Origin: Demequina lignilytica
GTDB lineage: Bacteria > Actinomycetota > Actinomycetes > Actinomycetales > Demequinaceae
DNA length: 64,000 nucleotides
Assembly (NCBI RefSeq): GCF_030418305.1
Contig: NZ_JAUHPX010000001.1
Coordinates: forward strand, 496,001-560,000
Direction: 5' to 3'
Shown here: piece after piece, positions 58,646 to 64,000 of the stretch
Position numbering within the stretch: the first letter of the stretch is position 1
Layout of the letters: each line of letters opens with the position of its first letter
Program-made: the position numbers and the translations under genes
The notes under the pieces: model-generated
Told to the model about the DNA's origin: nothing
The model's database searches: none
Seen by the model: only the letters and a program-made list of their open reading frames with translations

Positions 58646-60037
58646 ATGCAGCACACGTTCCGCACGCGTTCGACGCGGCTCCTGGCCGCCTTCGGCGCGC
58701 TCGCCCTCGCGGTGACCATCCCCGTGGCCACGGCGCCCGCGGCGCAGGCGCTCACCCCCTCGAGCCTCCTGCTGGACCTCACGAACGACTACCGGGCCTC
58801 GAAGGGCCTCTCGGCGCTGCACTGGAACACGGGCGCGGCCAAGGTGGCGCAGACGTGGAGCGAGAAGATGCTCGCCGAGGGTCGGATGTATCACAACCCG
58901 AACGTGTTCTCGCAGATCCCGTCGGGCTGGACGGGCGCGGCGGAGAACGTCGGCTTCGCGTGCGGCTACTCCTCCGCCGCCGCCGCGGCCAAGGCGATCA
59001 TGAAGGCCTGGATCGCGTCGTCCGGGCACGAGAAGAACCTGCGTGGCTCGTACACCGACATCGGCATCGGCTTCGCCTGGGACTCGTCGACCCGATGCGC
59101 GTACACGACGCAGGACTTCGCCAAGTACTCCGGCACCCCGTCGACCTACTCGATCTTCGGCACCGTGAAGAACAGCTCCGGCGGCGCCGCCGCGAACGTG
59201 AAGGTGTACGCGCGCAAGGGCACGTCGACCTACACGGCCACCACCGACTCGACCGGCAGCTACTCGCTGACGGGGCTGCCCAAGGGCACCTACACCCTCC
59301 AGTTCTCCCCCGCGTCCACCTCGCAGCGGGGCGAGTTCTACACCGATGCCACGGCCAAGGCCTGCGCCTCCCGGATCTCGCTGTCCAAGGACAAGGTCGG
59401 GCTGACCACGAAGCTCTCGAGCTCGTCCGCGCCGACGGTCGACGGCGAGGTGCTGATCTGCGACATCGCGGCCGACAAGTCGTCGACGTACTACTCCGCC
59501 TTCGCCGACGAGATCCAGTGGCTGGCCGACGAGGGCGTGACCACCGGTTGGGACAACGGCTACGGCGCGAAGGTCTACAAGCCCCTGTCGAGCGTGACCC
59601 GCGAGGCGATGGCCGCCTTCATGTACCGCCTGGCGGGCTCCCCGAAGATCACCGGCTCCGACAACTTCGTCGACATCTCCGGCACCGCGTTCGAGGACGA
59701 GATCACCTGGCTCGCCGGCCAGGGCATCACCAACGGCTGGAGCAACGGCGACGGCACCGCGGACTTCCAGCCGAAGTCGAAGATCTCGCGCGAGGCGATG
59801 GCGGCGTTCCTCTACCGCTACGCGGGGTCCCCGTCGTACACCGCACCCTCGACCTCGCCCTTCGTCGATGTGAAGCCCTCCTCGATGTTCTACAAGGAGA
59901 TCTGCTGGCTCGCCTCGACCGGGATCAGCACGGGCTGGAGCCTGTCGAACGGCAAGAAGGAGTACCGCCCGTCCTCGTCGATCACCCGTGACGCGATGGC
60001 CGCGTTCCTCAGCCGCTTCGACGCCAAGGGCCTCTGA
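58646..60037 (+). CDS. Secreted CAP-domain protein with three SLH-like repeats
   Basis: 463 residues, ATG after GAAGGAGG. Signal peptide (residues 1-35, cut near AQA). CAP/SCP domain at about 40-165 with LLLDLTNDYRASKGLSALHW and SSGHEKNLRGSYTDIGIGF. A carboxypeptidase-regulatory-like beta domain at about 172-230 (DSTGSYSLTGLPKGTYTLQF). Then three repeats of the form F-DV/DI...EI-WLA--GI--GW...(I/V)(S/T)RE/DAMAAF, about 290-463. SLH-like repeats tether proteins to wall polymers; the CAP domain function is unknown. Confidence 0.9.
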   Translation: MQHTFRTRSTRLLAAFGALALAVTIPVATAPAAQALTPSSLLLDLTNDYRASKGLSALHWNTGAAKVAQTWSEKMLAEGRMYHNPNVFSQIPSGWTGAAENVGFACGYSSAAAAAKAIMKAWIASSGHEKNLRGSYTDIGIGFAWDSSTRCAYTTQDFAKYSGTPSTYSIFGTVKNSSGGAAANVKVYARKGTSTYTATTDSTGSYSLTGLPKGTYTLQFSPASTSQRGEFYTDATAKACASRISLSKDKVGLTTKLSSSSAPTVDGEVLICDIAADKSSTYYSAFADEIQWLADEGVTTGWDNGYGAKVYKPLSSVTREAMAAFMYRLAGSPKITGSDNFVDISGTAFEDEITWLAGQGITNGWSNGDGTADFQPKSKISREAMAAFLYRYAGSPSYTAPSTSPFVDVKPSSMFYKEICWLASTGISTGWSLSNGKKEYRPSSSITRDAMAAFLSRFDAKGL

Positions 60038-60174
60038 GCATCGCGACCCGCCTCCGCCCGAGGCCGCGGTGACGCGATGCTGATCGACCGGCCTCGTGCC
60101 GCACGGGGAACGTGCCGATGACAAGGATGCGCCACGCGACCGCTGGCGCCGACCAGGAAGGGAGCTCCGCGAAC

Positions 60175-61824
60175 GTGAAGCCGGCGCAGCCGCAGTGGCG
60201 ATGGGTCCGCGCCTGGGCGCGGACCCTCACCGTGCTGGCGGCCTCCTGCGCGCTTCTGATCGGCACGTTGCCGAGCGGCGCCGAGGCCTCCGACGGACCT
60301 CTCGACCCGGATGCCGCCGCGAGCGCCTCCCCCGCGGCGGAGCCCCAGGCCTCGTCCACCCCCGCGCCCTCCGCCTCGACCGAGCCGGACATGGGCCTCA
60401 CCTCGACACCGGAGCCGGCTGCGACCGCATCCCCGACGCCGTCGCCCGAGCCCTCCGCATCCGCCTCCCCTGATCCGACGGAGGCGCCGACCGAGGACGC
60501 CCCGGCCGAGCAGGTCGAGCCCGAGCCGGAGCCGGCCGACGACTCGCCGCTGGTCGGCGTGCTCTCCGCGACGTCCGCCGTGTTCACCGACGTGTCCGCG
60601 ATCCAGGGCGCCACGACGTACTCCCAGTTCGCGACCGAGATCGCGTGGATGGCCGAGACCGGGATCTCGACGGGCTGGGTCACGGCCGACGGAAGCGCCC
60701 AGTACCGGCCGACGGAACCGGTCAGCCGCGACGCGATGGCCGCGTTCCTCAACCGCTTCGCCGGCTCCCCCGCGTTCGCTCAGCCGTCGGTGTCGCCGTT
60801 CGTGGACGTCCCCACCTCCCGGCAGTTCTACCGCGAGATCACCTGGCTGCGCTCGGCCGGCGTGTCGACGGGCTGGACGACGGCGACCGGCGTGGAGTAC
60901 CGGCCGACGAAGTCCATCACGCGCGACGCGATGGCGGCGTTCCTGTACCGGCTCGCGGGCTCGCCCGACTTCACCTTCCCGACGACCTCGCCGTTCGTCG
61001 ACGTCACGGCGAGCACGCCGTTCGCCAAGGAGATCGCGTGGCTCGCCTCGGCCGGCGTGACCACGGGCTGGTCGACGTCGAGCGGGGCGCAGTACCGGCC
61101 CCTCGCCTCGATCACCCGCGATGCGATGGCGGCGTACCTGTACCGGCTGGACGCGGCGGGGATCATCGACCTGTCGGCGGCGCTCGGGACCACGCTGCGG
61201 CACACCACGGTGTACGTGTACGTGGCCACGACGCTGAACCTCCGCACCGGTCCGGCGACGACATTCGACGTCGCGCGACAGGTCGCGGAGGGGACCGCCC
61301 TCGTGCCGACCGGCACCACCCAGGACGGATGGATCCAGGTCACCGTGGACGGCGAGCTGCTGTGGGCCTCGAGCTACTACCTCGTGGGCCGTCAGGGCGC
61401 CGCGGTCACGCGGATCACCTCCCTGTACGAGAACGGCCGGCTTCCCGAGGAGGAGCTGTGCACGCTGTCCTGGGACGCCGTGGAGTCGCTCGAGTGCGAC
61501 GCGGCCTTCGACCTGGAGATGCTCAACATCGAGTTCAGGAACCAGTTCGGGTTCGACCTGCCGCTCAACGACTCCTACCGCGACTACGACACGCAGGTCC
61601 TGTTCAAGGCCGTGTACGGCGATCTCGCGGCCAAGCCCGGCACCTCCAACCACGGGTGGGGCATGGCGATCGACGTGTCGACCTCGCGGCTCCCCGGCGG
61701 CACGGGCGGCGCGGCGTACGCCTGGCTCACCCAGCACGTCGGCGTCTACAACTGGGTCCTGCCGGCGTGGGCGCGCCCGACGGGGACCAAGCCCGAGGCC
61801 TGGCACTTCGAGTACACCGGCTGA
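60175..61824 (+). CDS. SLH-repeat VanY-type D,D-carboxypeptidase
   Basis: 549 residues from the GTG at 60175, which places a standard signal peptide (RTLTVLAASCALLIG, cut near AEA) at the N-terminus; in-frame starts at 60112-60127 are possible. A Pro/Ser/Glu-rich stalk of about 90 residues leads to three SLH-like repeats (about 140-335), an SH3b-like domain (LNLRTGPATTFDVARQV), and a peptidase M15B/VanY domain with His493 and Asp500 (SNHGWGMAID) and His544 (WHFEY), the zinc ligands. It should trim D-Ala from peptidoglycan stems at the wall. Confidence 0.9.
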   Translation: MKPAQPQWRWVRAWARTLTVLAASCALLIGTLPSGAEASDGPLDPDAAASASPAAEPQASSTPAPSASTEPDMGLTSTPEPAATASPTPSPEPSASASPDPTEAPTEDAPAEQVEPEPEPADDSPLVGVLSATSAVFTDVSAIQGATTYSQFATEIAWMAETGISTGWVTADGSAQYRPTEPVSRDAMAAFLNRFAGSPAFAQPSVSPFVDVPTSRQFYREITWLRSAGVSTGWTTATGVEYRPTKSITRDAMAAFLYRLAGSPDFTFPTTSPFVDVTASTPFAKEIAWLASAGVTTGWSTSSGAQYRPLASITRDAMAAYLYRLDAAGIIDLSAALGTTLRHTTVYVYVATTLNLRTGPATTFDVARQVAEGTALVPTGTTQDGWIQVTVDGELLWASSYYLVGRQGAAVTRITSLYENGRLPEEELCTLSWDAVESLECDAAFDLEMLNIEFRNQFGFDLPLNDSYRDYDTQVLFKAVYGDLAAKPGTSNHGWGMAIDVSTSRLPGGTGGAAYAWLTQHVGVYNWVLPAWARPTGTKPEAWHFEYTG

Positions 61825-61852
61825 CGGGGCCGGATCGCCCTCCGCGGGCCGG

Positions 61853-64000
61853 TCAGGGGAGCTCGGCGAGCACCTCGAGCCAGGCTCTCCGGGCCCCGAG
61901 CTCGGCGGGGATCTCCAGGCGGTAGGCACCGGGATCCCTGAGGAAGTCGCCCAGCTCCGGCAGCTCGAACAGCTGCGCCTTCTGGCGGAAGTACGCGCTG
62001 GCGCCCATCAGGTAGGCGGGCACCCCCATGAAGCTGGCGAAGAGCGCCGTGTGGTACGAGGAGGACAGCGCGAGATCCACGTCGAGCACGGGTCGCAGCG
62101 CGTCGGGAAGCCCCGCGCCGAACCGGTACTCCAGCGACGCCTTCGCGATGTCGATCACCTCGAAGCGGGAGAAGGGCATGTCCTCCGCCAGCGCCGCGAC
62201 CGTGTCCAGCGTGTCCCGGACGTCGAGGCGCGGGTCGTCGTAGGCATGCAGGAGCAGGAGCTCGCAGCCGGGCAGCTCCTCCGCGACCTGGCGCAGGACG
62301 TCGCGCCACAGGTCGAGCGCCACGTCTCCCCCGGCGTAGTCCGAGGTGTTCATGTGGACGGCGACGCGCGTGGGGCCGTCGAGGCGCACGTGACCGTCAC
62401 GGGCGCGCGCCCAGTCCTGGAAGGTCTCGGTCAGGTCGTCGAAGGTGAAGCGCACCGGCACGTCGAGCGCCTCCGTCGCGAGAGCATGCGAGACGTGGTC
62501 GCGCAGCCCGACGCTGACGATGCGGTGGTGGCGGGCGAGCTCCGTGAAGCCGGCGAGCGCCGGCTCGTCCACCTGCAGGCCCGAGAACAGGATCGGGGCG
62601 CCGCAGCCCGACGCGACCGCGTCGATGACCGGGAAGTGCTCGCCGCCCCAGCGGGCGTTGAGATAGCCGCCGCCGACCACGTGCACGAGCGTGCCACCGG
62701 CAGGCGCGGGGATCTCGACGAGGCCAGCGCCGCGGACGTCGACCGCGGTGGTCGAGACGAAGACGACGTCGTCGGCCGGGTACCAGGCCTCGAGCTCCGC
62801 GGAGCGCCCGGCGGGAAGCGCCGCGTACGCGGGCATCACCAACGTGGTGCGGCGGCCCGCGCGACCCGCCCAGTACGCGAGGATGTTCTTGGTCTGGAGG
62901 ATGTCGCCGAAGTTCGAATGGCCGTTGGACCCCGTGTACACGACGACATCGGCGTCGCGCGCCGCCAGCCGCTCCGCCGCCTCGGGCGACGCGAACCAGC
63001 GCACGCCGAGCCGCGCCCACGCACCGGGCCCGGTCACGCGCGGGAGGTAGCCCGGCAGCCGCTCGAGCGTCCGGTCGAAGGCGGCGCGCGACGAGGTCTG
63101 CTCCAGGCGGGAGCGTGCCGCCGCGACGCGCGCGGCGACCTCGTCGGGCGCGTCGCGGAGCAGGTGGACGCGGTCGAGGTAGCCGGCGATGCCCTCCTCG
63201 GGATCGACCGGGAGCCCGGTGTTCGCGTCGAGCGCCTCCCCCACGCCGCCGACCAGCGGCGCGATCACCGGCAGGCCCGACGCCATGGCCTCCAGCATGA
63301 CCATGGGCACACCCTCGTAGTCGGAGGTCATCAGGAGCGCGTCGTAGCGCTCCGGGTGGGCGCTCGGGAAGCCGTCCCGGTAGGCCTCTCCCCGCACCGC
63401 GACGCCGGCGAGCGCGCGGTCGAGGTGGTCCTGCCAGTCGGGATCCGAGCCCACCAGGGGCTCGCCGATGATGGTGATCTCGACGTCCGCGCCTTCCGCG
63501 GCGAGCGCCTCGGAGATGTCCGCGAGCCGGTCGAGTCGCTTCTGGAGGTCGAAGCGGCCGACCCACAGGAGGCGCAGGGTGCGTCCCGCCGGGGCGGCCA
63601 TGCCCGCGCGGGCCTCCGCCGAGGGCGCGAGCGCCACCGTGTCGACCACCGTGTGCACGGTGAACAGCTCCCGCGGGATCCCCTGGGTCTCGACGACGTG
63701 GTCGACGAAGGCCTCGCTGTCCGTGAGGATCCCGGTGAAGCGGTCGAAGTAGTCGCGGGAGCGGTTGTAGAGGAAGGACCACTCCGAGCCGTCGTCGAAG
63801 CGGTCGACCACGAAGGTCTGGGCGTAGACGCGGCTGTGCCGGGCGATCTGGACGCCCCAGCGCTCCATCATCCAGAAGCCGCGCTCGGCATTGTTGATGT
63901 GGATGGTCTCCGGCCGGAGCTGCGCGCAGACCATCGCGAGCACCTGCTCGAGGAACTCGGGCCACAACCGGAAGCGGCCGAGCTCGACCACGGTCACGCC
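61853..64000 (-). CDS. Glycosyltransferase (GT4-like) fused to polysaccharide pyruvyltransferase-like domain, 5' end outside window
   Basis: At least 715 codons; the frame stays open past the right edge, so the N-terminus is missing. The first half is GT-B/GT4: LRLLWVGRFDLQKRLDRL, then SDYEGVPMVMLEAMASGLPVIAP. The second half (from about residue 350) reads NFGDILQTKNILAYW, VHVVGGGYLNARWGG, VGLRDHVSHAL and SSSYHTALFASFMGVPAYL, the pattern of PF04230 pyruvyltransferases such as CsaB/WcaK. It lies convergent to the SLH genes. The combined enzyme could build and pyruvylate the wall polymer that SLH domains bind. Inferred from pattern; no alignment run. Confidence 0.75.
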   Translation of the reverse strand, partial: GVTVVELGRFRLWPEFLEQVLAMVCAQLRPETIHINNAERGFWMMERWGVQIARHSRVYAQTFVVDRFDDGSEWSFLYNRSRDYFDRFTGILTDSEAFVDHVVETQGIPRELFTVHTVVDTVALAPSAEARAGMAAPAGRTLRLLWVGRFDLQKRLDRLADISEALAAEGADVEITIIGEPLVGSDPDWQDHLDRALAGVAVRGEAYRDGFPSAHPERYDALLMTSDYEGVPMVMLEAMASGLPVIAPLVGGVGEALDANTGLPVDPEEGIAGYLDRVHLLRDAPDEVAARVAAARSRLEQTSSRAAFDRTLERLPGYLPRVTGPGAWARLGVRWFASPEAAERLAARDADVVVYTGSNGHSNFGDILQTKNILAYWAGRAGRRTTLVMPAYAALPAGRSAELEAWYPADDVVFVSTTAVDVRGAGLVEIPAPAGGTLVHVVGGGYLNARWGGEHFPVIDAVASGCGAPILFSGLQVDEPALAGFTELARHHRIVSVGLRDHVSHALATEALDVPVRFTFDDLTETFQDWARARDGHVRLDGPTRVAVHMNTSDYAGGDVALDLWRDVLRQVAEELPGCELLLLHAYDDPRLDVRDTLDTVAALAEDMPFSRFEVIDIAKASLEYRFGAGLPDALRPVLDVDLALSSSYHTALFASFMGVPAYLMGASAYFRQKAQLFELPELGDFLRDPGAYRLEIPAELGARRAWLEVLAELP

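Follow-up and report, generated by a model that had tools for sequence, protein, structure and literature searches.

The stretch of DNA analysed here, referred to as the window, comprises 64,000 nucleotides of Demequina lignilytica (C1:496001-560000 of the 2.9-Mb genome) and carries near its right end two genes for secreted SLH proteins that face a gene for a large glycosyltransferase fusion, the C-terminal domain of which is related to the pyruvyltransferase family PF04230. We judge the chances evenly balanced that these genes represent a divergent Demequina variant of an actinobacterial module in which SLH proteins are anchored to a pyruvylated wall polymer. The first-pass annotation of the window had proposed such an actinobacterial counterpart of the SLH-pyruvyl anchoring system; the idea is better supported by other genomes, in which SLH and PF04230 genes pair across the order, than by the window itself, since within Demequina the fusion is rare and the SLH gene often stands without it.

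SLH and PF04230 genes across the order

A sample of 198 genomes from the order, which we take to be Actinomycetales in GTDB, contained SLH domains (PF00395) in 43 genomes and PF04230 in 127, and PF04230 was present in 38 of the 43 SLH-bearing genomes as against 89 of the 155 others (P = 1.2e-4). Gene position was more telling for this pairing than genome co-occurrence. Outside Demequina, SLH-bearing genomes supplied 40 PF04230 regions (40 of the 41 PF04230 places among the matches listed, G071:C110 being excluded for an internal stop), and 18 of them held SLH genes; of 20 control regions, fixed at round-number coordinates in 10 of the same genomes, none did. In 12 of the 40 regions, representing 12 genomes, 7 genera and 3 families, the gap to the SLH gene was 1 kb or less. 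A second control used LCP, another wall-polymer family, in the 12 genomes already showing adjacency, where 30 of the 39 listed LCP matches became loci: an SLH gene lay within 1.5 kb of none of these 30 and of 9 of the 40 PF04230 matches, the latter being the unbiased count, as the alternative figure of 9 of 19 for those 12 genomes is biased by the choice of genomes.

Eight of the 12 SLH-adjacent PF04230 proteins were fused to a GT2 glycosyltransferase domain, seven in the order PF04230-GT2 (L201-L205, L207 and L216) and one in the order GT2-PF04230 (L192); the remaining four (L183, L185, L210 and L222) lacked a GT2 fusion by Pfam. At two of the fusion loci (L203 and L204) and at the stand-alone PF04230 gene of L222, the SLH block stood beside ribosomal-type genes resembling rplQ and rpoA. 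The titles and abstract openings of the literature searched describe no actinobacterial SLH-pyruvyltransferase pair.

SLH trimers and the C-terminal domain of the fusion

The two window proteins read earlier as SLH-like, one with a CAP domain and one of VanY type, were borne out as such by Pfam. The CAP protein matched CAP (E 2.5e-13), CarboxypepD_reg and SLH (E 2.4e-16, three stretches), and the VanY protein matched SLH (E 9.8e-11, two stretches), SH3_3 and VanY (E 1.4e-10); their PF00395 scores were 59.8 and 41.9 bits, respectively, with a cut-off of 20.8. A local SLH profile, derived from repeats chosen by an Arg-containing pattern, found three repeats in each of the two, as it did in each of 11 SLH proteins chosen from the window and from L015, L016 and L017, the last two repeats of L016:11080-12732 being weak. 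The structure closest to the model of the CAP protein trimer was the SLH domain of Sap (3PYW; root mean square deviation 2.0 over 171 residues), followed by 6BT4, the Sap SLH domain with a pyruvylated polymer unit (2.2 over 162 residues), and then by SpaA; model confidence and Z scores are listed in Table 1. A sequence profile of the trimer matched Sap and SpaA SLH structures at E 3.1e-15, and several of the matched structures had been solved with 4,6-pyruvyl-ManNAc ligands. The SLH regions of the CAP and VanY proteins are real SLH trimers, and the fold predicted for that of the CAP protein is the three-pronged spindle.

In SpaA, according to the consulted part of PMC6081394, SLH-Arg43 and the backbone of SLH-Gly29 bind the pyruvate, SLH-Trp13 provides the stacking surface for the sugar, and the SLH domains of Paenibacillus alvei and Sap recognise the pyruvylated sugar at the non-reducing terminus. 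Equivalents of both Gly29 and Arg43 were present in all six window repeats and, taken singly, in 32 of the 33 repeats aligned from the 11 proteins; of two weak repeats in L016:11080-12732, one lacks Arg43 and the other Gly29. These counts are to be read with the Arg-based choice of the profile repeats in mind. Both residues were also found in 81 of 81 above-cut repeats of the 40 PF04230 regions. The S/TRE-AMAAF motif, rightly noted in the first pass as standing in place of the classic ITRAE, contributes the Arg that corresponds to the Arg of TRAE. By analogy with the solved complexes, the window proteins would most likely bind a pyruvylated wall polymer. A further protein with three SLH repeats and a VanY domain, in G042 (L067), was recognised by the local profile in a genome without any PF00395 match at E 0.001; PF00395 thus under-detects such repeats, and the co-occurrence counts of SLH and PF04230 are to be read as rough.

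The C-terminal domain of the fusion was compared with PF04230 as an alignment of five sequences, from the window and four relatives; the closest named match to this last domain, in Demequina sediminis, is 76 percent identical. Alignment by hhalign to PF04230 proteins, represented by 22 sequences from Demequina, gave a score of 51.6 (E 2.7e-6) over 289 columns, whereas the controls reached 15.2 (GT4 domains from these fusions), 10.4-12.5 (eight column shuffles) and 11.0 (reversed alignment); four of the five sequences also matched PF04230 at E values up to 1, the best at 5.6e-4. These sequence profiles make the C-terminal domain a remote member of the PF04230 kin. Arg157 (in GxRDxxS), His307 (in SSYH) and Lys331 (in QKA, outside the hhalign alignment) are identical in all five sequences, and we take them, by motif rather than by alignment with CsaB, to be the counterparts of CsaB R148, H308 and K328. 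The model of the domain was GT-B-like (pLDDT 81.8). The claim of CsaB/WcaK-like motifs is supported by the profile comparison, although the Pfam score stays below the family cut-off, as detailed below. P. alvei CsaB depends on R148 and H308; a part for K328 is likewise indicated, and R306 lies at the docked phosphoenolpyruvate (PEP) site, as reported in the part of PMC10435577 consulted.

Other searches with the fusion returned nothing of this kind. The whole protein gave no PF04230 line in Pfam at E values up to 1, and a PF04230 search of its own genome listed a different gene and not the fusion. Searches of the PDB with the C-terminal sequence gave five weak, unrelated-looking matches (E 0.08-0.65), and with the five-row profile one (E 0.42). 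Among the rows listed, NCBIfam had no above-cut-off match for the fusion (25 of 26 rows), for the two SLH proteins or for the C-terminal domain.

Relatives, rival explanations and a proposed mechanism

Outside Demequina, a homologue of the fusion is found in Pseudoclavibacter soli (C1:204214-207723; last domain 46 percent identical), a genome in which every one of the 12 PF00395 matches falls beside it, within C1:209537-215027. This block holds four genes with three SLH repeats each and, named by eye from the translations, a GT2-like gene and a pair resembling Wzm (permease) and Wzt (ATPase), with genes resembling rmlA, rmlB, rmlCD and glf upstream. The C-terminal end of the Wzt-like ATPase (L143:11542-12774, minus strand, 410 amino acids) is made up of SLH repeats, of which the local profile counts three at a lax cut and PF00395 one; no strongly hydrophobic segment separates the ATPase and SLH parts. 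This is a single case from one draft genome: among the matches listed for 396 genomes of the order (4 candidates per genome), no full-length exporter ATPase ending in SLH was found, all matches ending by residue 287, at or soon after the nucleotide-binding part, and the literature search returned no paper combining SLH, Wzt, an ABC transporter and polysaccharide export. Over 270-304 amino acids, the free GT2 in this block shares 34-40 percent identity with four fused GT2 domains, and over 315 amino acids it shares 36 percent with the free GT2 of L210; this likeness joins the P. soli locus to the module seen at the PF04230-GT2 loci. BLAST at E 1e-3 found no match between the window GT2 and the four GT2 domains compared (L192, L203, L205 and L216). 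The P. soli Wzm and the ATPase part of its Wzt share 49 and 62 percent identity, respectively, with a pair encoded on contig C12 of the window genome. The C12 block (L004:9579-18363 and L179:368-2007) also holds genes resembling, by eye, UDP-galactopyranose mutase (glf) and the galactofuranosyltransferase GlfT, and its Wzt-like protein consists of the nucleotide-binding part only. A metagenome-assembled Actinomyces genome carries a fusion homologue without a detectable GT4, near genes for an rmlB-like dehydratase, glycosyltransferases and an LCP protein; none of its 38 SLH matches lies on the contig of the fusion, which is too short for a linkage test.

Several results weigh against reading the window as an anchoring module. 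The fusion was present in 3 of 44 Demequina genomes and missing from 41. At the corresponding leuS-side position of 40 other Demequina regions (three of them shorter than 4 kb, at contig ends), an SLH gene was found in 21, with the fusion in 2 of these 21 and in none of the remaining 19. The fusion is thus hardly a fixed partner of the SLH gene in Demequina, and because it is so rare and the SLH gene occurs without it, the adjacency in the window proves little by itself. SLH and PF04230 were each found in 31 of the 44 Demequina genomes, PF04230 occurring in 24 of the 31 SLH-bearing genomes and 7 of the 13 others (P = 0.16); six of the 31 had neither the fusion nor a PF04230 match. Nor were SLH genes enriched around Demequina PF04230 genes: of 40 regions reaching about 10 kb to either side, 4 contained one (centred on 40 of at least 66 PF04230 matches, with seven regions covering a second match), while some of these genomes had SLH matches 10-18 kb from PF04230, outside the regions. 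In the order sample, genome co-occurrence is confounded by kinship: counted by genus, the proportions were 17 of 19 and 34 of 53 (P = 0.04), and under a stricter count that used only SLH-bearing genomes, 16 of 19 and 35 of 53 (P = 0.16). A glycosyltransferase domain is also not peculiar to SLH-adjacent proteins, as it was found in six of eight non-adjacent PF04230 proteins, which were chosen for long frames, some of which may start too early: L206 and L194 were PF04230-GT2 fusions, and L198, L199, L208 and L196 carried the glycosyltransferase domain PF13524. The other two were L197:7030-9615, with PF04230 at the N terminus and a nitroreductase (PF00881) at the C terminus of one open frame, and L184, with PF04230 alone.

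At the protein level, the Trp13 column was never Trp in the 31 above-cut repeats of the window and its relatives (Ala 14, Glu 7, Gln 5, Pro 3, Met 1 and Ser 1), and the column after it held Phe in 24 and His in 7. As the S/TRE-AMAAF motif keeps the key Arg and Gly29 is conserved, the pocket would differ mainly at the stacking residue. The PF04230 search of the C-terminal part alone, which had been suggested at the outset, remained below threshold (E 0.19, 12.1 bits; gathering cut-off 25.3); homology to the family is supported by the hhalign comparison. Ser305 occupies the place of CsaB R306 and is Ser in all five sequences, whereas all 12 SLH-adjacent PF04230 genes keep the RxH motif. Last, the PDB folds closest to the C-terminal model were UDP-GlcNAc epimerases and glycosyltransferases, an outcome that speaks neither for nor against pyruvyl transfer; the ketal-pyruvyltransferase fold of Pvg1p (5AX7) did not appear in the matches listed by either of two fold searches and is not thereby excluded.

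The C12 locus is a second possible source of the SLH ligand and a serious alternative: the ligand of the window genome may be made by its canonical, WcaK-like PF04230 gene, the window fusion making another polymer. We hold this to be rather unlikely, even though the genome matches PF04230 nowhere but in the C12 gene (E 2.8e-31), which has the RxH motif and lies about 0.65 kb upstream of a gene for a surface protein with three SLH repeats. A galactan with 4,6-pyruvyl-galactose has been reported for Promicromonospora (PMC6801904, consulted in part), and the six SLH-bearing Demequina genomes with neither gene imply that the ligand or its source varies. Against the C12 gene as the ligand maker, D. 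sediminis (G022) has the fusion and 26 SLH matches and no PF04230 match, the fusion being the only PF04230-type candidate found there, and the linkage of the fusion to SLH genes recurs in P. soli. We infer that the fusion, rather than the C12 gene, makes the SLH ligand in the window genome.

A different objection concerns the enzyme itself. The C-terminal domain could derive from PF04230 and have lost pyruvate transfer, using another donor or being non-catalytic, and the fusion would then be an ordinary capsule or wall-polymer glycosyltransferase that landed by chance beside an old SLH-VanY gene. The serine at the PEP site, the sub-threshold family score and the 19 Demequina regions with an SLH gene and no fusion all fit this explanation. 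It is nevertheless rather unlikely in our estimation: the residues matched to H308 and K328, like the Arg of GxRDxxS, are invariant in the alignment, Ser occurs at the same place in 3 of the 22 Demequina PF04230 proteins (L029, L038 and L049), and the P. soli fusion stands beside the whole SLH set of its genome. The annotated union of chain building and pyruvylation in one protein holds in so far as a PF04230-type domain is fused to glycosyltransferases; the C-terminal domain, which has lost one of four PEP-site residues, may be a pyruvyltransferase.

If the window does encode an anchoring module, we propose the following mechanism. In the cytosol, the GT2 and GT4 domains of the fusion would extend a lipid-linked chain by further sugars, and the PF04230-like domain would then place a cap, probably pyruvate with PEP as the presumed donor, on the last sugar, so that growth stops and the chain is flagged as ready to be exported. 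The P. soli exporter may read the same cap inside the cell through its own SLH repeats. Outside the cell, secreted SLH proteins would read it again. In the window genome, the CAP and VanY proteins would use their SLH trimers to grip the negatively charged non-reducing end of a wall glycopolymer, where a pyruvylated sugar is the likeliest ligand.

The notion that one cap is read twice by SLH-type domains, by an exporter ATPase in the cytosol as an export licence and then by secreted proteins on the wall, is tentative and somewhat doubtful; it is suggested by the fit between fusions of glycosyltransferase and pyruvyltransferase type beside SLH genes and the SLH repeats that replace the Wzt carbohydrate-binding domain in P. 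soli. If true, SLH would be a general cap-reading module beyond its role as a surface anchor, and anchoring sites would exist only on finished, licensed chains. The recurrent pair of SLH and PF04230 genes, often with a built-in glycosyltransferase, would give these polymers a testable role and predict the anchor enzyme of each genome, and the SLH-ended exporter ATPase of P. soli would connect the reading of the cap during export with the anchoring of proteins outside the cell.

Gene layout and comparison with known systems

The SLH genes directly face the fusion gene, as first described, the VanY and fusion genes lying tail to tail with 28 bases between them (Table 1). The GT4 domain expected in the fusion is present, and the gene is larger than described: it extends 1278 bases past the window to position 65278 (L002:11853-15278), encodes 1141 amino acids and has an N-terminal GT2 domain (amino acids 10-170, Pfam) outside the window. 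Wall-glycan enzymes, for which the region right of position 64000 was to be inspected, were not seen there among the translated frames, examined by eye and without family search; ATP-grasp-like and transglutaminase-like proteins come next. The ATP-grasp-like protein (L002:17064-18680) has a long glutamine run near its C terminus, a feature also present in the fusion's neighbour in L016.

Table 1. Positions of the SLH genes, the fusion gene and their domains in the window
Feature	Position	Strand	Basis or remark
CAP - CarboxypepD_reg - 3xSLH protein, secreted, 463 amino acids	58646..60037	+	Pfam and local SLH profile
Predicted SLH trimer of the CAP protein	59456..60034	+	Model pLDDT 94.0; Z 22.6 to Sap SLH 3PYW, 21.3 to 6BT4
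3xSLH - SH3_3 - VanY (D-Ala-D-Ala carboxypeptidase type) protein, secreted, at most 570 amino acids	60112..61824	+	Pfam and local SLH profile
Predicted SLH trimer of the VanY protein	60583..61164	+	Local SLH profile
GT2-GT4-PF04230-like fusion gene, part in the window (amino acids about 427-1141 of 1141)	61853..64000	-	Gene continues to 65278
GT4 domain of the fusion, amino acids 569-704 (PF13692, PF00534)	63167..63574	-	Pfam
Divergent PF04230-like C-terminal domain of the fusion, amino acids 770-1141	61856..62971	-	Pfam sub-threshold, profile comparison, alignment

The nearest known system is the CsaB/SLH anchoring of Firmicutes, described in the consulted parts of PMC6801904 and PMC6081394 for Bacillus and for the csaB-tagA-tagO-slhA-spaA cluster of P. 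alvei. The window resembles it in carrying Gly29 and Arg43 in its SLH trimers, in having a PF04230-type gene next to SLH genes and, if residues are matched by motif, in keeping three of the four PEP-site residues in the fusion. Unlike CsaB, the window enzyme is fused to GT2 and GT4 domains, is only distantly related in sequence and has Ser at the place of Arg306; and unlike in the SLH proteins of Firmicutes, the Trp13 position is not Trp in the window, whose system is known from genes alone. The PF04230-GT2 fusions of other genera resemble the window fusion in joining a glycosyltransferase and a pyruvyltransferase-type domain in one protein beside genes with three SLH repeats, and differ from it in scoring 63-95 bits against PF04230 and in keeping RxH. 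In capped O-antigen systems, as the part of PMC9445017 consulted describes, the C-terminal carbohydrate-binding domain of Wzt reads the non-reducing cap, which stops growth and licenses export. The P. soli locus is similar to such Wzm/Wzt export in having Wzm- and Wzt-like genes and an extra C-terminal domain on the ATPase; unlike in Wzt, that extra domain consists, in this one genome, of SLH repeats and not of a jelly-roll carbohydrate-binding domain.

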